DNA of 51,147 nucleotides from a virus. Below, piece by piece: positions 7,388-44,724 of this stretch (within the stretch, counting starts at the first letter, position 1; every line of letters begins with the position of its first letter). The position numbers and the translations under genes are program-made. Under the pieces are notes generated by a model that worked only from the letters and a program-made list of their open reading frames with translations, ran no database searches and was not told the origin of the DNA. Where the stretch lies: positions 1-51,147 of the IMG/VR virus record IMGVR_UViG_3300001373_000005; one strand, 5' to 3'.

Positions 7388-7437
7388 TTGACACACATAT
7401 TAATATGTGATATTATATAAGAGTACCAAACAGGTAC
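7388..7437 (+). promoter_or_regulatory. Sigma-A promoter with palindromic spacer and +1 hairpin
   Basis: -35 TTGACA (7388-7393), 17-bp spacer, TGA-extended -10 TATTAT (7411-7416). The spacer contains the perfect palindrome CACATATTAATATGTG (7394-7409), a possible operator. A hairpin GTACC-aaaca-GGTAC (7423-7437) starts at the predicted +1. It drives the gene at 7469 and perhaps those that follow. Confidence 0.85.
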
Positions 7438-8692: not shown

Positions 8693-9493
8693 ATGATTAC
8701 ACAGGAAACAAAAGAAGCACTAAATAAAATCATATCTTACGATAGTAAAAGAGACAGAAAAGAATATAACCTTTTTGACAGTATAAAATTCAATCTTCAA
8801 TTTTTCGCCGATGATGATGAAGACGATGACGAAGAAGAAGACAAAACCACTACAACACAGAACAGTGGAAACAAACCAAAAGATACCGTTAATAACGGAG
8901 AAAAATTATTTACACAAACACAATTAAACCGTTTACTAGCACAAGAAAAGAAAGACGGTAGAAGAAGTGTACTAACACAGTTAGGCGTAAGCGAAGACAA
9001 CGCAACAGACGTGTTAACACAATTCAATGCGTTCATGGACGCAAAACGTAAGAAAGAGCAAGAAGAGAACAAAGGTAACACAGAATCACAAGCACAACAA
9101 AACAGAGAGTTACAAGAGTTAAAACGAGAAATGTTTATTGCTAAGTCACAAACCGAAGCATTAAAGCTAGGAGTTAAAACGGACTATGTAGAAGACGTTG
9201 TTACATTAGCTATTGCGAAGTTTAAAGACGGTGATGACATGAAAACAGTTTTGACAGAAATTAAAGAGAAACACAAAAATTTCTTTGTAGGTAGTTCAGA
9301 GGAATCCGAAGAAGAAAAGGAGAAAAACGTGGGTAAAAAAGGAACAGGAACAAGCGTAAAATCTTCAAAGGTAGATAACGAAGAAACTAAAGATAAGAAA
9401 GACAAAAAGAAACAAACAAGCTCTTTAGGTTCTAGGTTAGCACAAGACAGGAACGAGAAAGTCACAGCAAAAAAATCATACTTTGACAGGTAA
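8693..9493 (+). CDS. Capsid scaffolding protein
   Basis: 266 residues from ATG 8693 (SD GGAGG at 8680). Near residue 30 is FNLQFFA, a phrase typical of scaffold and capsid proteins of Gram-positive phages, followed by a run of Asp/Glu (about 38-58). The centre is a long helical, coiled-coil-like region rich in Gln/Lys/Glu (about 80-170), and the C-terminus is very basic, as expected for the capsid-binding end of a scaffold. It lies two genes before the major capsid protein. The pattern matches the DUF4355/gp20-type scaffold families. Confidence 0.8.
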   Translation: MITQETKEALNKIISYDSKRDRKEYNLFDSIKFNLQFFADDDEDDDEEEDKTTTTQNSGNKPKDTVNNGEKLFTQTQLNRLLAQEKKDGRRSVLTQLGVSEDNATDVLTQFNAFMDAKRKKEQEENKGNTESQAQQNRELQELKREMFIAKSQTEALKLGVKTDYVEDVVTLAIAKFKDGDDMKTVLTEIKEKHKNFFVGSSEESEEEKEKNVGKKGTGTSVKSSKVDNEETKDKKDKKKQTSSLGSRLAQDRNEKVTAKKSYFDR

Positions 9494-10502: not shown

Positions 10503-11543
10503 ATGACTATTTATGATTTGATTACATCACAAGAATTAAGTGATTACTGGAATACATTGACACAGAATGAACCTCCATATATGGGAGAAGAATTATTTCC
10601 TAACAACAAGAAATTAGGGATTGACCTTAAATGGTTAAAAGGAAGTAAAGGTTTACCTTGTGTATTAAAGTCAAGTGGATTTGATACAAAGGCTATTCCA
10701 AGAGATAGAATTGCGTTCGATAAAGTGTACGCAGAAATGCCATTTTTCAAAGAATCAACATACATTGATGAAGAGTTACGCCAGTCATTAAATATGGTTC
10801 TTGAAACAGGTAACCAAGTTTATATTGACGCAGTACTTACAAGAGTATTTGATGATGAAATGCGTTTGATTCGTTCAGCACGAGTATCAAGAGAAAGAAT
10901 GAGAATGCAATGTATTACAAGTGGTGTTGTGGCTATGGCTAGCAACGGTCAAACATACGTGTATGATTATTCTATGCCTGACGCTCATAAAGGTGAAGCA
11001 AGTACATCTTGGAACACTGTAGCATCAAGTGACCCAATTGAGGACATGAGACAAGCAAAAGAAACAATCTATGATAACACTGGAAACGTAGTTACAAGAG
11101 CAGTATGTAACACAATTACATTCAGACAAATTAGAAACAGTGAAGCAGTAAAGAAAGCATTGTACCCACTTACAAACGGAGTAGGAGCAATCAATGACAA
11201 AATGGTAAAGGATTATATCTTTGACCAGCTTGAAATCACAGTTGCTATAAACGATAAGAAATACAAAGATGAAGCAGACGTTACACAAAAGTTTGTACCT
11301 GATTACGTGTTGTCAATGTTCCCTGATGGAATGTTAGGTACAACATGGTTCGGTACAACACCAGCAGAAAGCGACCTTGCAAATAGTTCTGTTGCAAATG
11401 TAAGTATCATTGACATGGGTGTTGCTGTCGTTACTTCACAAAAAGTTGACCCTGTACAAGTAGAAACAATCGTATCAATGATTTGTTTGCCATCATTCGA
11501 ACAGGCTGACAGCGTATTTATTTTAGACACCAATCCATCTTAA
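10503..11543 (+). CDS. Major capsid protein (gpE-type)
   Basis: 346 residues, typical for lambda gpE-type (phage_cap_E) HK97-fold capsids. Family features include the early segment with LFPNNKKLGIDLKWLKGSKG, an E-loop-like stretch, a long spine helix region around residues 100-140 with FDDEMRLIRSARVSRERMRM, and the C-terminal P-domain strands ending with SMICLPSFEQADSVFILDT. It forms the icosahedral shell with the upstream scaffold and decoration proteins. SD AGGAGG. No terminator follows, only a short AT-rich gap before the connector genes. Confidence 0.88.
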   Translation: MTIYDLITSQELSDYWNTLTQNEPPYMGEELFPNNKKLGIDLKWLKGSKGLPCVLKSSGFDTKAIPRDRIAFDKVYAEMPFFKESTYIDEELRQSLNMVLETGNQVYIDAVLTRVFDDEMRLIRSARVSRERMRMQCITSGVVAMASNGQTYVYDYSMPDAHKGEASTSWNTVASSDPIEDMRQAKETIYDNTGNVVTRAVCNTITFRQIRNSEAVKKALYPLTNGVGAINDKMVKDYIFDQLEITVAINDKKYKDEADVTQKFVPDYVLSMFPDGMLGTTWFGTTPAESDLANSSVANVSIIDMGVAVVTSQKVDPVQVETIVSMICLPSFEQADSVFILDTNPS

Positions 11544-20804: not shown

Positions 20805-20873
20805 AATTTTAAGCACTTGTAACCTATGCGACGGTATGTAAACCTACCTAGTGTATTTACAGGTGCTTAAATT
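20805..20873 (+). terminator. Long structured stem-loop at the end of the late operon
   Basis: AATTTTAAGCACTTGTAA (20805-20822) pairs with 20856-20873 over 17 bp with one bulged T and one G-U. The 33-nt apical part holds more weak pairing. A T-rich region follows, so it may end late transcription after the holin gene, though it is larger than a simple terminator. Its stem core AAGCACYT/AGGTGCTT recurs at 31142-31215. Confidence 0.6.
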
Positions 20874-20920
20874 TGATTTTAGAGCGTTTTAAACAATTTT
20901 AACTTTTTTTAAAATATATA

Positions 20921-20968
20921 TTTACAAATTAAAACATTTATGATATACTTAAGGAGTGTTAAAAACAC
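20921..20968 (+). promoter_or_regulatory. Sigma-A promoter with +1 hairpin
   Basis: -35 TTTACA (20921-20926), 17-bp spacer, TGA-extended -10 TATACT (20944-20949). Hairpin GTGTT-aaa-AACAC (20956-20968) begins at the predicted +1. It drives the gene at 21003. Confidence 0.8.
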
Positions 20969-21887: not shown

Positions 21888-21939
21888 TTGACTTTTTACC
21901 TGACATATGATATACTTATATAGTCGGACGATATCCGAC
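21888..21939 (+). promoter_or_regulatory. Sigma-A promoter with +1 hairpin
   Basis: -35 TTGACT (21888-21893), 17-bp spacer, TGA-extended -10 TATACT (21911-21916). Strong hairpin GTCGGA-cgata-TCCGAC (21923-21939) starts at the predicted +1. It is followed by a structured leader of about 130 nt. Confidence 0.85.
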
Positions 21940-21940
21940 A

Positions 21941-22038
21941 AGCCTTGTGATATTACCCATGATATCGGTGTACGTGTTTGTCAGTCATGTACATTACACA
22001 GTCAAACGTGTACAAGGCTATTACTGTAATTACAGTAA
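21941..22038 (+). ncRNA. Structured 5' leader RNA (riboswitch-like candidate)
   Basis: AGCCTTGT (21941-21948) pairs with ACAAGGCT (22012-22019), closing a junction that can hold GATAT/ATATC (21949-21953/21962-21966) and GTTTG/CAAAC (21976-21980/22003-22007). The perfect palindrome TTACTGTAATTACAGTAA (22021-22038) follows; it folds as a 7-bp stem with an AATT loop. It lies between promoter 21888 and the gene at 22071, which lacks an RRUN box. Function unknown. Confidence 0.5.
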
Positions 22039-22070
22039 ATAAAATACCTTGATAAAGGAGAGAAAGAACA

Positions 22071-30437: not shown

Positions 30438-31073
30438 ATGGGAACTATAGAACGGTATAATAAAATAGTAATAGGCATTGACCAATCCTTGAAGTGTACA
30501 GGTATAAGCATTGTAGCAGATGGCAAGATAAAGAACGTAGTGTCAGAATCATACAATGAGTGTAAAACAGATACAGATAAACGGTCAACACTATATAAAC
30601 GTGTATACACAGCTATACATACAGCAAAACAAAGAAGTGATAACGTAATAGTCATAATGGAGCGTATACGTTTAAAGTCAGCAGGATTCATTGATATTAA
30701 TGTTATCAAGGCTATGGCAGGATTGTGTTGTACAATAACAGACTGTTGTGTTAATAATGGTATACAAGCCTACACAGTTGATACAGCATCATGGAAAGCA
30801 CAAGTTGTGGGTTCTGCTAAGAAACAGGATAACAGTTATGGTATAGACCCTAAGAAGTGGCTGACAATGAAATATCTTGTAAGCAATGGTTACGAACAGT
30901 ATATACTACAGGAAGTATCACCACGCAAGAAGACAAGTATAGTTAAGGTTGTACATAATAGTAATGGTACAGTCACACGTTATACTTACAATGATAATAA
31001 AGCTGACAGTATGTGTATAGGATTATATGGCTTTATATCGCCTGATTTACAGAAGTTACACCCCGAGAAGTAG
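30438..31073 (+). CDS. RuvC-like Holliday junction resolvase
   Basis: 211 residues, SD GGAGG/GAGG. RNase H-fold motifs in RuvC order: GIDQSLKCTGISI (Asp15), VIMERIRL (Glu about 75) and YNDNKADSMCIG (two Asp near 190). The length and spacing fit phage RuvC-type resolvases, which cut branched DNA before packaging. A second candidate resolvase of another fold is encoded at 37112. Last gene of this operon. Confidence 0.82.
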   Translation: MGTIERYNKIVIGIDQSLKCTGISIVADGKIKNVVSESYNECKTDTDKRSTLYKRVYTAIHTAKQRSDNVIVIMERIRLKSAGFIDINVIKAMAGLCCTITDCCVNNGIQAYTVDTASWKAQVVGSAKKQDNSYGIDPKKWLTMKYLVSNGYEQYILQEVSPRKKTSIVKVVHNSNGTVTRYTYNDNKADSMCIGLYGFISPDLQKLHPEK

Positions 31074-31141
31074 AATAATATACCTAGATATATAGAATGG
31101 CTTTAAGGGGCATATATGAGTATCACAAGGCTATATACAAT

Positions 31142-31220
31142 AAGCACCTACTAGTAATGATGTGTACACAACAGTTAATATGACATGTGTATATACTTGT
31201 TACTAATAGGTGCTTTTATT
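31142..31220 (+). terminator. Long structured terminator-like stem-loop
   Basis: AAGCACCTACTAGTAA (31142-31157) pairs with 31200-31215 at 15 of 16 positions, then TTATT. The 42-nt apical part can form a second helix between GTGTACACA and TGTGTATATAC. It lies after the RuvC-like gene and shares its stem core with the element at 20805. Confidence 0.65.
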
Positions 31221-31702
31221 ATGTACTAATGTAATATGACACATAACAACACGTAATATACTACTAGTAAACAAGTATAACGTAACGTAATCAAGTATGT
31301 GTTGTGTGTTAACTGTTGTGACGTGTTGTGTGTTCATGTGTTACGTTGTATACCTGTTGTCAGATGTGACCTTATATATTTACTTTTATTGTAATAAATC
31401 CACACGTAATTATATGTATTTGTATATAGTAATACATGTGTTTCTATGTAAAAATGACGCATGTGAGCACCTTTAAAAGTATGTATTTTCACAAGGGCGT
31501 ACTTGTAAAAGCATGTAGTTTTACCGTTTTCCACTTTTTTGTCAAGCCCTTTTTGACGATTTAATATTATTTAACATTTATCATATGTGACCACATGTAA
31601 ACCCTATTGTTTCCTACATTTGTTCGTTAATAAGTATGTAACAATACGCTATGTAACCACTGTTAACACTGTGTTGTCACTGTGTGCACACAAAAAAAGT
31701 TG

Positions 31703-31731
31703 TTGACAAAAAAAACTTAAAGTGTTATCAT
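31703..31731 (+). promoter_or_regulatory. Sigma-A promoter of the control region
   Basis: -35 TTGACA (31703-31708), 17-bp spacer, TGT-extended -10 TATCAT (31726-31731). The transcript would have a leader of about 420 nt before the GTG at 32160, beginning with the G-rich patch. It could serve as a regulatory or priming RNA. Confidence 0.75.
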
Positions 31732-32159
31732 ATTTTCAATACGTGGGGAACATGGGGTCAGGGGTGTGAGAGTGCTCCAGTGCGTTTGTGCGTGTACGTG
31801 TCAGTGTCAATTCAATTCTATTCGTTCTATTCTATTCAACTGTCTTTCAGACAGCATTACACATTCTATTCTATTATATACATTCATTACATACATATAC
31901 ATACTATTGTTAATACTATTTACATTCAATGTATAATACTATACATACACTTATAGTTATATACTCATAGTATAATAATAGTACTAATGGTGTATACTAT
32001 CTATTAATAGTTAATAACACTATTCTATTGTTTACAATGTAATACTATATACATGTAGTATAATACACAATGTAATACATATAAATAACTATATGTTAAC
32101 ATTATAATAGTACAGTGGTACAATAATAATATAAAACAAACAAGAAAGAGGTATAAACA

Positions 32160-33212
32160 GTGAACAAACCTAAGTTACTATGTATGAACATGCACGACTA
32201 CACGAAACAAGAACAAACAAAAGTTACAACATTAAATTATTTTAATAACATCAAGAACATGACCGAACATTACAATGTTATAATTGTACTATTTAACAGT
32301 TTACAACACAGCGAAATTACAAAGTACGCACCATCACTATGTAACAGTGAAGATGTAACAATAGTTCACATGTATGAACTAAAATTACTCGAAATGAAAC
32401 AATTCATAAGTAAGTGTCACCTAGTAAGTTGTATCTACATGCTGGGGTTCAACGTTGAATCAGATTTACACACAAGGCAAGGACTCACAGTGTACACATG
32501 CAACGGTAAAGAGTTACGTTATGTCTTTTATAACTTTCTGCTTGATGCATACAGACGCAGACCAAACATTGTAATTTACTTAACAGAAAAAGATGTGGAA
32601 GAAGCGTTAAAAACTTTGAGTGTATTCTCTCTCATAGAAAACAAGAAAGTGAAAGTTCAAACCGACTTTGTTTCTGTAATACGCACAGGCATAGGAAGTA
32701 CACGACAAAACAAAAACTTACTAGAATTTATTAATAAAAAACTATCAGGACAAATAGACGGTTCTAAACCATTTGTAAAAAAAGTGCTACCATTCGCAAG
32801 TGATGTAAATCCAAAATATGATTTAACACTTGAAGACTGTAAACATATAAATGATAACTTTGTTGTATTCTTAGAGTACTACACAACACGTAACTATCCA
32901 ATCAGTTGTACAAGGTTTAACATACAAACACTTTTAACATGTTTCTTATTGGGTCGTATTCCGATAATCGTATGCCAAACAGAAGAGCAGAGAGAATTTA
33001 TAATAGAATTGATAAAGAATACCCTTGACGATAGTTTAAATTTGCCCCTTAACCTGCATAGAGCTTCATGGATGCTTCACATTTCTTTTACAATACTTAA
33101 GAGCGAATATGAGGATTCTAGTGCGTCAGAGCTACATAGCAGATTTACAAAAGCAGGTCACATTGAGTTCATGCGTGTAGCAAAAGATACAATTTTAGAA
33201 ATAATACAGTAA
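32160..33212 (+). CDS. Large hypothetical protein
   Basis: 350 residues from GTG 32160 (SD AAAGAGG). Alternating strands and helices in the first 170 residues (YNVIIVLFNSLQ, HLVSCIYMLGF, RPNIVIYLTEKDVEEAL) suggest an alpha/beta core; the rest is helical. No catalytic motif is evident and I do not recognise the family. It is the first gene after the control region, so it is likely expressed early. Confidence 0.75.
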   Translation: MNKPKLLCMNMHDYTKQEQTKVTTLNYFNNIKNMTEHYNVIIVLFNSLQHSEITKYAPSLCNSEDVTIVHMYELKLLEMKQFISKCHLVSCIYMLGFNVESDLHTRQGLTVYTCNGKELRYVFYNFLLDAYRRRPNIVIYLTEKDVEEALKTLSVFSLIENKKVKVQTDFVSVIRTGIGSTRQNKNLLEFINKKLSGQIDGSKPFVKKVLPFASDVNPKYDLTLEDCKHINDNFVVFLEYYTTRNYPISCTRFNIQTLLTCFLLGRIPIIVCQTEEQREFIIELIKNTLDDSLNLPLNLHRASWMLHISFTILKSEYEDSSASELHSRFTKAGHIEFMRVAKDTILEIIQ

Positions 33213-33218
33213 AAAGAA

Positions 33219-33247
33219 TTGACATACTCTCATAAATGTAGTATAAT
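33219..33247 (+). promoter_or_regulatory. Sigma-A promoter
   Basis: -35 TTGACA (33219-33224), 17-bp spacer, perfect -10 TATAAT (33242-33247). Unlike the other promoters it has no convincing +1 hairpin, only a weak AAT/ATT pairing. It drives the gene at 33289. Confidence 0.85.
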
Positions 33248-33264
33248 AAACAAGTAATTAAATA

Positions 33265-33276
33265 TTTCAGTTGAAA
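33265..33276 (+). promoter_or_regulatory. RRUN-loop leader hairpin 4
   Basis: TTTC-AGTT-GAAA, 12 nt before ATG 33289, abutting the SD GAGG. Confidence 0.75.
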
Positions 33277-33288
33277 GAGGCGAACAAA

Positions 33289-34131
33289 ATGAACAAAGAA
33301 CTTTTGGAATCAGGAAGAATCAAAACAGCTATAACTTATTTCGATAATATACTAGAATTACACGAACACCTAACAAAAGAAAAAGGTTTTAATATGCACT
33401 TCAAAAATGCAAACGATAGAAGTTCAATGAAAAGTGGTTATGACGGTATACGTTTTACAACTACAAAATCTTTCGAAGAAGCACTTGACTTGTTAAAGCA
33501 AGGTGATTCATTCAACACACAAAACATACTCAATCAAATGAGTAAAATAAAAGTAGCTGATACAAGAGAGGTTGTAAAAAAACTAGGTTTAGACATAGCA
33601 GGGTATCAATGTTGTGTGCCTACGTATCTTAACAACCAACCTAATAGCATGTTTAACAAAACACGTACCGTTAAGAAAGACAAAGTAATAACATTAGTAA
33701 AGTTGTCCTCTTATCCTGTTAGGACAACAGCAGACGAAATAATAAAGTATAATGCTCTATTTCTTAATACAGTTAAGATGATTGAGCAACAAGGTTATAG
33801 ATGCAACATAGAGTTGTTGCATGCAAGTATTGGAATGAAAACACATATAATAACAAGAGTTAAAGTAAAAGACGCAAGTGAACGCCTTAATGTGTCAAAG
33901 TTAGCGTTTGTACTTGTTAATCCGTCTTATTCAAGGCGTTGTATGTTTCGCAGGATAGAACTTGATGAACATACAACATCTGAATTTTCCAGTGGCTACG
34001 GTCTTTCATGTTACACAAAAGAAAAACTAAACACTACACTGTACAAGGTGAACTCGAAACATATTATCATAGAATCAATGTTCGGGGAAAAAGAACAAAA
34101 GAAATTGATTGATGACGTACAAAGCAAATAG
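33289..34131 (+). CDS. Conserved phage protein, probable partner of the AAA+ ATPase
   Basis: 280 residues from ATG 33289. Recognisable phrases: YDGIRFTTTKSFEEALDLLKQGD (about residues 43-65), AGYQCCVPTYLNNQPNSMFN (about 103-122) and a C-terminal region SKLAFVLVNPSYSRRCMFRR, a combination I associate with a conserved phage family of unknown function (DUF7192-like; number from memory). It sits directly upstream of a MoxR/CobS-like ATPase, and such ATPases usually work with a VWA-like partner. A VWA-like role here is inference. Confidence 0.65.
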   Translation: MNKELLESGRIKTAITYFDNILELHEHLTKEKGFNMHFKNANDRSSMKSGYDGIRFTTTKSFEEALDLLKQGDSFNTQNILNQMSKIKVADTREVVKKLGLDIAGYQCCVPTYLNNQPNSMFNKTRTVKKDKVITLVKLSSYPVRTTADEIIKYNALFLNTVKMIEQQGYRCNIELLHASIGMKTHIITRVKVKDASERLNVSKLAFVLVNPSYSRRCMFRRIELDEHTTSEFSSGYGLSCYTKEKLNTTLYKVNSKHIIIESMFGEKEQKKLIDDVQSK

Positions 34132-34145
34132 AATAGATAACAATC

Positions 34146-34180
34146 AAGTGACCAATAACAAGGTCACTTTTGTTAGTTTT
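34146..34180 (+). terminator. Rho-independent terminator
   Basis: AAGTGACC-aataacaa-GGTCACTT (34146-34169) followed by TTGTTAGTTTT. It separates the gene at 33289 from the AAA+ gene, which then has its own promoter at 34200. Confidence 0.85.
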
Positions 34181-34199
34181 AAAAGTTATACAAAAAGTG

Positions 34200-34228
34200 T
34201 TGACATGTACACATACATAGTGTATACT
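34200..34228 (+). promoter_or_regulatory. Sigma-A promoter
   Basis: -35 TTGACA (34200-34205), 17-bp spacer, -10 TATACT (34223-34228). A leader hairpin ACATA-aaaaa-TATGT (34246-34260) lies downstream and partly competes with the RRUN box. It drives the AAA+ ATPase gene. Confidence 0.85.
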
Positions 34229-34257
34229 TATACACATGAGATACAACATAAAAAATA

Positions 34258-34269
34258 TGTCAGTTGACA
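34258..34269 (+). promoter_or_regulatory. RRUN-loop leader hairpin 5
   Basis: TGTC-AGTT-GACA, 13 nt before ATG 34283 and touching the SD AAGGAG. Confidence 0.75.
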
Positions 34270-34282
34270 AGGAGATTAAACA

Positions 34283-35398
34283 ATGAACACAATGAAAGTA
34301 AACAGAATCGGAAACAGTAAAGTAAATATTGAATATCAAATAGAAGTTGAAACATATAAAGGAAGAAAATTTAAATCAGAAACTATCAACACATTTGATA
34401 TGAATGGTAACACATGCTTTTATTTCAAAGGACAGTATTACAAGCTTACAAGTAATACAACATTCGAGCCACTTAAAAAAGTGACAACAAAGAAAAAAAG
34501 CAACACAACAAAAGTTACGTTAACAAATACAACATTTGACGTAACACTTACAACAAAAGAAAAGACAGTAACAACCACAACAGAAGAAACACCAACGACA
34601 ACTACAAACAAGGATTATTCAAAGTTTATGAAACACAATAAACACAAAATGATTCTTGAATGTATTAAAAGTAATGTTCCTGTATTCCTTGTAGGTGGTG
34701 CAGGAAGTGGAAAGAACTTCACGCTTGAACAAATTGCACAAGAGTTAAAAATGAGTTTTTATTTTAGTAATTCAGTGCAACATGAATTCAAATTAACAGG
34801 ATTTATTGATGCAGGTGGTAAGTATCACGAAACGGAGTTTTACAAAGCTTGCAAGGATGCGAGTGAGGGGAAAGAAGTAATGTTCTTCCTTGACGAAATA
34901 GACGCTTCAACGCCTGACGTTCTTATCCTGTTAAATAGTGCCATTGCAAACGGATATTTTGAGTTTCCAACTGGAAAGCTTACGTTTAACAAGAATATAA
35001 AGTTTGTATCAGCAGGAAACACAGTTGGTAATGGTGCTGATGATAGCTATACAGGGCGTTGTTGCCTTGATATGTCATCACTTGATAGATTCGCTTTAAT
35101 CAAGTTCGACTATGACATGGAGATTGAATTAGCTATCACAGGGGGTAATACAGACCTTGTGGGAATGGTGGAAATGCTTAGAGCGAGAGCAACGACCAAT
35201 CAAATACGTTGTGTATTCTCATACAGGTGCTTAGAGCAAATCACAGCACTTGAAAAGACAAGTATGAAACTAGAAGATATCTTAACAATTACATTACTAA
35301 AAGGACTTGATAAAGATACAGCAAACACATTGAAGTTTTCGTCAGACGTGACTTGTAAGTATCTAAAAGCTTTTAGTAAAGCAATCAAAGGGATGTAG
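34283..35398 (+). CDS. MoxR/CobS-like AAA+ ATPase
   Basis: 371 residues. The N-terminal ~75 residues are a small beta domain, and a Thr/Lys-rich linker runs to about 110. The AAA+ core starts near 118: Walker A GGAGSGKN (about 137-144), Walker B MFFLDEID (about 200-207), sensor 1 KFVSAGNTVG and an Arg-containing LDRFALI. This matches MoxR/CobS-type AAA+ proteins, which remodel protein complexes with VWA partners. The function in phages is unknown. The upstream gene is the probable partner. Confidence 0.85.
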   Translation: MNTMKVNRIGNSKVNIEYQIEVETYKGRKFKSETINTFDMNGNTCFYFKGQYYKLTSNTTFEPLKKVTTKKKSNTTKVTLTNTTFDVTLTTKEKTVTTTTEETPTTTTNKDYSKFMKHNKHKMILECIKSNVPVFLVGGAGSGKNFTLEQIAQELKMSFYFSNSVQHEFKLTGFIDAGGKYHETEFYKACKDASEGKEVMFFLDEIDASTPDVLILLNSAIANGYFEFPTGKLTFNKNIKFVSAGNTVGNGADDSYTGRCCLDMSSLDRFALIKFDYDMEIELAITGGNTDLVGMVEMLRARATTNQIRCVFSYRCLEQITALEKTSMKLEDILTITLLKGLDKDTANTLKFSSDVTCKYLKAFSKAIKGM

Positions 35399-40928: not shown

Positions 40929-40945
40929 ATTACATATAACAAAAC

Positions 40946-41051
40946 ATAAAACGCTAGTGGAAACATACTCACGTGTACACGAACTCCCAACGTGTATACA
41001 CTCCACACAATAAATAATACCCCTGATTATAAAATGAAGCTAGCGTTTTAT
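40946..41051 (+). ncRNA. Structured RNA candidate, three-way junction B
   Basis: A perfect 12-bp stem ATAAAACGCTAG/CTAGCGTTTTAT (40946-40957/41040-41051). Inside it are GTGTA-CACG pairing with CGTG-ta-TACAC (40973-40981/40991-41001, loop AACTCCCAA), a short GTGGA/TCCAC helix below it, and hairpin ATAAT-accccTG-ATTAT (41014-41030). The 3' side TTTTATCTTTTA could act as a terminator. A transglycosylase gene follows with no clear promoter, so this RNA may be part of its leader. Confidence 0.55.
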
Positions 41052-41092
41052 CTTTTAAGCATATTAACAAATAATATAAATGTGCTTGCATA

Positions 41093-41996: not shown

Positions 41997-42011
41997 TTAA
42001 ATACACACACA

Positions 42012-42107
42012 AAAGCCGATACAAGCCTTGTAGCCACTTAAATACATTATTTTAGAATAATATACCTTAAGATAAAAAGTGACGTTTACAAGCCCTGTAT
42101 CGGCTTT
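42012..42107 (+). ncRNA. Long segmented stem-loop (terminator or structured RNA)
   Basis: Outer stem AAAGCCGATACA/TGTATCGGCTTT (12 bp, 42012-42023/42096-42107), then CTTGTA/TACAAG (42027-42032/42087-42092), CACTT/AAGTG (42035-42039/42077-42081) and an apical ATTATT-TTAG-AATAAT (42046-42061). It ends the transglycosylase transcript just before promoter 42151. Its size and internal loops exceed a simple terminator. Confidence 0.6.
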
Positions 42108-42150
42108 ATAATGCCATAAAATAAATTTCATATTTTTTACAAAAAAAGTA

Positions 42151-42206
42151 TTGACAACCAATTCAACACATGCTATACTATCAAAGTACCAAGTAGTTGA
42201 TTGGTA
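42151..42206 (+). promoter_or_regulatory. Sigma-A promoter with +1 hairpin
   Basis: -35 TTGACA (42151-42156), 17-bp spacer, TGC-extended -10 TATACT (42174-42179). Hairpin TACCAA-gtagttga-TTGGTA (42187-42206) begins next to the predicted +1. It drives the gene at 42245. Confidence 0.85.
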
Positions 42207-42217
42207 ACAACAAAATA

Positions 42218-42229
42218 TTTCAGTAGAGA
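42218..42229 (+). promoter_or_regulatory. RRUN-loop leader hairpin 8
   Basis: TTTC-AGTA-GAGA with one U-G pair, 15 nt before ATG 42245. The 3' arm overlaps the SD (AGAGAGG), so folding could hide the SD in this copy. Confidence 0.65.
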
Positions 42230-42244
42230 GAGGAAACAAAGAAA

Positions 42245-44426: not shown

Positions 44427-44446
44427 TATTTTTTAAAAAAAAGTGT

Positions 44447-44494
44447 TGACACGCTTACAAACATGTGTTAACATATAGAAGTAACAAACAGTTA
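44447..44494 (+). promoter_or_regulatory. Sigma-A promoter with +1 hairpin and long leader
   Basis: -35 TTGACA (44447-44452), 16-bp spacer, -10 TAACAT (44469-44474), weaker than the others. Hairpin TAAC-aaaca-GTTA (44482-44494) lies next to the predicted +1. It is followed by a structured leader of about 220 nt. Confidence 0.7.
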
Positions 44495-44516
44495 GTAAAC
44501 AGCAAGACACGAAACA

Positions 44517-44673
44517 CTTGCGAATCTCTAAACCGTTACCACTGTAAAGCGTAACCGTCCGACACATAGGAAGTGATTGTGTGTGCTGTATGTGAAATAG
44601 TGAAACACATGAGCCAAACGCACTCGCAAGGAATGAGCGTTAAAATCCACGCACTTCTCACACAGGGGTGCGT
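44517..44673 (+). ncRNA. Large structured 5' leader (riboswitch-like candidate)
   Basis: CTTGCGA (44517-44523) pairs with TCGCAAG (44624-44630), closing a multibranch region with GTTAC/GTAAC (44535-44539/44551-44555) and ATGTG/CACAT (44590-44594/44606-44610). A separate hairpin ACGCAC/GTGCGT (44649-44654/44668-44673) follows, and then the RRUN box. No match to a known riboswitch class was recognised. Confidence 0.55.
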
Positions 44674-44696
44674 AATGTTAAAAACATAAAAAAATA

Positions 44697-44708
44697 GCAC
44701 AGTGGTGC
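44697..44708 (+). promoter_or_regulatory. RRUN-loop leader hairpin 11
   Basis: GCAC-AGTG-GTGC, 16 nt before ATG 44725, abutting SD AAAGAGG. Confidence 0.75.
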
Positions 44709-44724
44709 ACGAAAGAGGTAAAAA

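Follow-up and report, generated by a model that had tools for sequence, protein, structure and literature searches.

At the primary origin of phage T7, AT-rich intergenic DNA comes after the promoters, and T7 uses its own RNA polymerase. Phage morons are single-gene insertions that carry their own transcription signals (PMC3029335). The T4 origins oriF and oriG need both a promoter and an unwinding element rich in A+T, and phage RNase H probably cuts the RNA made there so that it can prime replication (PMC3016281). The locus described here lies in a window of 51,147 nt (the whole stretch of viral DNA that was analysed), the two ends of which have 99 identical bases in common, making the phage genome complete and circular at 51,048 nt. 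All confidently called genes are on the plus strand, with no certain minus-strand gene in the genome. Gap sizes measured from hand-chosen gene coordinates confirmed that one intergenic region is exceptional in this packed genome, as the original prediction had stated, with 1086 nt (31074–32159) vs 408 nt for the next largest. It is fairly probable, in our view, that a lineage-specific accessory gene, hereafter gene 32160, is controlled from this gap, which would hold a terminator, promoters and an AT-rich leader.

The phage terminase shares ~50% identity with its counterparts in Bacillus phage PM1, Dulem virus 36 and their relatives. The replication module encodes a Toprim/DnaG-like primase, an SSB-like protein, DnaE, RecA, a Cas4-like nuclease and RuvC, with the ruvC gene closing the replication and recombination genes immediately left of the gap, and its nearest named relatives are Agathobaculum phages AB434P2/P3 and Dulem virus 36. 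A nucleotide search of phages and plasmids with the region and with the genome gave no match. Two observations were made on these named relatives. In Dulem virus 36, DnaE (34226–35374) and the terminase (1110–1882) are each split by an ORF-bearing insert, that of the terminase encoding an endonuclease, and these splits resemble introns or homing elements. In Agathobaculum phage AB434P2, ~400 nt shortly after ruvC (11116–11522) are unannotated and may contain a structured RNA.

Table 1 Features of the junction between ruvC and the DUF7192 gene, in window coordinates.
Feature	Position	Strand	Basis
RuvC-like resolvase gene, left flank	30438..31073	+	PHROG 159, E 7e-11; syntenic in relatives
Terminator-like hairpin, stem 31142-31215, then TTATTAT	31142..31221	+	MFE, shuffles; inverted repeat
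T-rich spacer with TG repeats	31236..31540	.	composition
Minus-strand ORF of 42-66 aa, coding value doubtful	31334-31462/31534	-	codon score
Promoter P1, TTGACA-17-TATCAT, TG-extended, A-tract ahead; start estimated at ~31738	31703..31731	+	shuffles
G-rich start of predicted P1 transcript, 43% G, three GGGG	31740..31806	+	composition
AT-rich low-complexity tract, 22% GC, ATACTAT repeats	31811..32095	.	composition
TTCTATTC copies in the AT-rich tract	31816, 31825, 31830, 31864		
Promoter P2, TTAACA-17-TACAAT, TG-extended	32096..32124	+	shuffles
Ribosome-binding site AAAGAGG	32145..32151	+	sequence reading
Gene 32160, 350 aa, GTG start, no detectable relative	32160..33212	+	searches
Consensus promoter TTGACA-17-TATAAT of the DUF7192 gene	33219..33247	+	relatives have it at the same junction
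DUF7192 gene, right flank; start probably ATG 33289	33271..34131	+	Pfam PF23822, E 1e-30; synteny

Relatives of this locus were found in IMG/VR via DnaE and AAA+ alignments, while single-protein queries with ruvC and gene 32160 retrieved none. In 43 distinct relatives, ruvC is followed by a junction of 66–2456 nt and then by DUF7192 and an AAA+ gene. The junction is empty of genes in about a dozen relatives and holds differing short accessory genes in the remainder, including one group with a ~300-aa gene; gene 32160 occupies this position in 0 of the 43. Across these junctions, the longest uncovered stretch is 170 nt in the median and at most 574 nt, vs 1086 nt here. Nearly all relatives have a promoter upstream of DUF7192, which is TG-extended in 37 of the 44 listed, each promoter having been picked, without shuffle control, as the top-scoring site within a stretch of at most 300 nt. 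This junction promoter corresponds to the window's perfect promoter at 33219, seven bases past gene 32160, and the gap and gene 32160 therefore both lie between ruvC and the conserved promoter. From the ruvC–DUF7192 layout of the 43 relatives, the relative-less gene 32160 and the position of promoter 33219, we infer, as the simplest account, that the segment 31074–33212 is a moron-like insertion that includes its own regulatory DNA; an insertion would be simpler than loss from all relatives.

Like phage morons, gene 32160 is found in one genome and is missing between the same neighbours in relatives, and it has its own predicted promoter, an AT-rich upstream region and a predicted terminator that separates it from the operon next to it. 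Unlike morons, it has no terminator behind it, its hairpin preceding the insert instead; its 1.1-kb control region is far longer than usual, and the gene has no known relatives. Searches of phages, plasmids, viral contigs, bacterial genomes, Pfam, PHROGs, NCBIfam and PDB returned no relative of gene 32160, the contig searches being single-sequence and reaching close relatives only, and the structure predicted without homologues was unusable (pLDDT 36). Its GC content (0.33) is slightly under that of the genome (0.35), with neither donor nor homologue found, and its GC3 skew is −0.20 vs +0.16 for its left neighbours. No plus-strand terminator was found between 33212 and DUF7192, and gene 32160 is thus not a fully self-contained promoter–gene–terminator cassette.

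Within the gap, the terminator-like hairpin, overlooked by the original prediction, starts 69 nt past ruvC and has a T-rich tail (MFE −39.5 kcal/mol, z −4.34, 0 of 200 shuffles as good). Palindromes had been proposed as a feature of the region; this hairpin stands out, but no other long palindrome does and the rest are ordinary. The proposed consensus promoter was borne out by P1, a near-consensus site with the best score (13), which none of 500 shuffles reached. P2, also overlooked before, sits 35 nt upstream of the start of gene 32160, with a score matched by 1% of AT-tract shuffles. Both are the predicted promoters of the putatively inserted gene itself. The order of hairpin then promoter recurs at other unit borders (34132–34282, 41997–42244), and P1 has the A-tract and TTGACA layout common to the phage's other promoters. 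P1, P2, 33219, 34200, 42151 and others match sigma-A promoters with an A-tract upstream element and extended −10, and show nothing unusual in comparison with them, P1 carrying TATCAT instead of TATAAT.

Elsewhere in the genome, a shared promoter form (AAAAAGTG-TTGACA-N17-TATACT-like) was observed at 7388, 34200, 42151, 42702, 44446 and 46486, in most cases with AGTA ~5 nt further on, and short TTTCAGTTGAAA-type palindromes lie ahead of the ribosome-binding site in several promoter-led genes (~33270, 34260, 38475, 42225). Very long hairpins with AT-rich loops are located at unit borders at 40930–41075 and 41997–42120 (z −5.2 and −6.1, respectively) and are probably terminators.

These parts suggest a course of transcription for the putatively inserted gene. 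The hairpin would halt transcription of the replication and recombination genes, and host sigma-A polymerase would restart at P1 and probably also at P2, so that gene 32160 would be transcribed through a long, largely unstructured AT-rich leader, with the older conserved promoter 33219 driving DUF7192 and the AAA+ gene. The AT-rich tract itself may be spacer or promoter-upstream DNA enlarged by slippage. The locus's most AT-rich 80 nt falls in the junction in 18 of 43 relatives, and in about half of them low-complexity, AT-rich DNA directly precedes the junction promoter, although the effect is small when the remaining promoters of those loci serve as the reference (p 0.04). Here, too, the tract directly precedes P2, so being a leader need not be its primary role. 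What the DNA itself displays is the set of parts, the order in which they stand, how far they depart from chance, and that gene 32160 is missing between the same neighbours in the relatives. As the control region of an inserted gene, the gap is ordinary in kind and unusual in size and composition: counting against this reading, a simple control region does not need 1.1 kb, G-rich and AT-rich extremes or a T-rich spacer. This reading offers a testable account of a gap that had no explanation: an accessory gene, equipped with terminator and promoter signals of its own, would occupy a variable slot adjoining the replication genes in an uncultivated phage group.

The composition of the gap is extreme in several respects. 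No 30-, 60- or 67-nt window elsewhere in the genome is as rich in G as those at ~31740–31806, directly after P1, and the three GGGG runs noted earlier within 20 nt were seen in 1 of 500 shuffles; the exact G-rich pattern had zero matches in viral contigs. The long AT-rich tract was likewise upheld, with ~31861–32160 holding the lowest-GC 200-, 300- and 400-nt windows of the genome, as were the four TTCTATTC copies, which are every copy in the genome (0.012 expected). The T/G-rich repeat fared less well: GTGTTGTGTGTT is present, but in two copies only, which is weak. The gap has three repeated 12-mers vs 0.42 expected (3.6% of shuffles), while 7-mers of the TG block were not significant after multiple-test correction, and an iteron or operator array in this block was rejected on that ground. 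The claimed strand-composition switch is visible in that 31001–32000 is the sole 1-kb window of the genome with negative AT skew, which is partly plain loss of coding bias, all genes being on one strand. At the scale of 80 nt, the genome is most AT-rich elsewhere (12% GC), at 20867–20946 ahead of gene 20940, with a hairpin upstream.

The alternative that survives best is a transcription-primed (R-loop) origin, which we regard as unlikely but which could coexist with control of gene 32160. RNA from P1 would hybridise in the G-rich zone, the AT-rich tract would open, and, in the manner of T4 oriF, phage RNase H would cut the RNA into a primer for the DnaE polymerase of the phage. The gap adjoins the replication module, the phage encodes RNase H, and downstream of the strong promoter come the genome's G-richest 60 nt and, after these, its AT-richest 200–400 nt. 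When each promoter was scored by G-richness just after it and then AT-richness, P1 had a combined z of 9.2, with 2.7 for the next promoter in the genome and 4.9 for the best in 13 relatives, a score that is descriptive rather than a test, having been designed after the gap was seen. With this order unmatched in the genome and in those 13 relatives, priming of replication, as proposed originally, keeps a low probability. However, the arrangement occurs in none of the 13 relatives scored, here or elsewhere, which counts against an essential origin and not against one peculiar to the lineage; in addition, a DnaG-like primase removes the need for a polymerase-made RNA primer, and phage gaps are ordinarily AT-rich.

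Skew analysis gave little in favour of an origin. A keto skew turn at 32061 was significant in gene shuffles (p 0.012; 0.042 without the gap), but the raw GC-skew curve climbs almost throughout owing to the all-plus coding, and after detrending its minimum is at 8944 and its maximum in the gap at 31368, the opposite of an origin under the usual rule. The range of GC skew is not significant, being equalled by gene-order shuffles 38% of the time (p ~0.38). A skew minimum elsewhere had been named in advance as evidence against an origin in the gap, and this was the outcome, skew being weak evidence in a 51-kb phage. The suggested comparison with relatives pointed the same way: in 12 relatives, most near full length, no skew switch was seen at the junction and the extremes were scattered.

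The likeness to T4 oriF/oriG lies in a promoter followed by an A+T-rich stretch, a phage RNase H and adjacent replication genes. The differences are a sigma-A-like rather than MotA promoter, an extra G-rich zone, an arrangement not conserved in relatives, and a phage with a DnaE-type polymerase and DnaG-like primase. Like the T7 primary origin, the gap combines promoters and AT-rich DNA within an intergenic region, and among the scanned window proteins no T7-like RNA polymerase was identified. We consider it unlikely that the sigma-A promoter, G-rich zone and AT-rich tract form a lineage-specific transcription-primed origin of a DnaE phage that doubles as the gene leader. Were the series to start replication, a phage with a bacterial-type replicase would have an R-loop origin, and a sequence rule for locating such origins would follow.

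It is improbable that the region makes a regulatory RNA or a long structured leader, whether to control gene 32160 in cis or to work in trans. The predicted leader of ~420 nt from ~31738 holds if P1 is used, exceeds those of the other promoters and lies in a region of non-random repeats. Its proposed role as a structured regulatory RNA was not supported, since its fold is no better than chance (z +0.77, 81 of 100 shuffles as good) and no Rfam family matched it; moreover, it contains no plus-strand terminator, is not conserved, and a short leader is available from P2. No riboswitch or known RNA was found in the gap. Leaders at two other sites are folded: 21917–22060, after promoter 21888 and ahead of gene 22071 with a Rho N-terminal domain, is strongly so (z −6.0, 0 of 200 shuffles) and is a candidate structured regulatory RNA, and a leader of ~245 nt after the strong promoter at 44446 (44446–44724) is moderately so (z ~−1.6).

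Reading frames in the gap add little coding potential to the preferred control region. Plus-strand ORFs have clearly non-coding codon usage, and those of 54 and 90 aa in the leader were rejected as genes on their codon scores, while the minus-strand ORF of 42–66 aa is borderline (−0.06 to +0.01 per codon). It is very improbable that the T-rich half (31236–31540) holds a small minus-strand gene, read from an inverted TTGACA at 31535–31545, or a gene remnant: the minus strand is A-rich there, the 42-aa ORF has AAAGGTG ahead of its ATG and the top codon score of the six frames, and TTGACAAAAAA is present inverted, flanking 31550–31700 on both sides, but that codon score is at or under that of the lowest known short gene, a comparison with 23,505 ORFs of relatives gave no homologue for any frame of the gap, no minus-strand promoter exceeds chance and the genome has no certain minus-strand gene elsewhere. 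The second-largest gap of the genome (43050–43457), in turn, looks coding in part, with an apparent missed ORF of ~45 aa that has paired cysteines (MLCNRCGGACWEE-like) and lies behind AAGGAGG.
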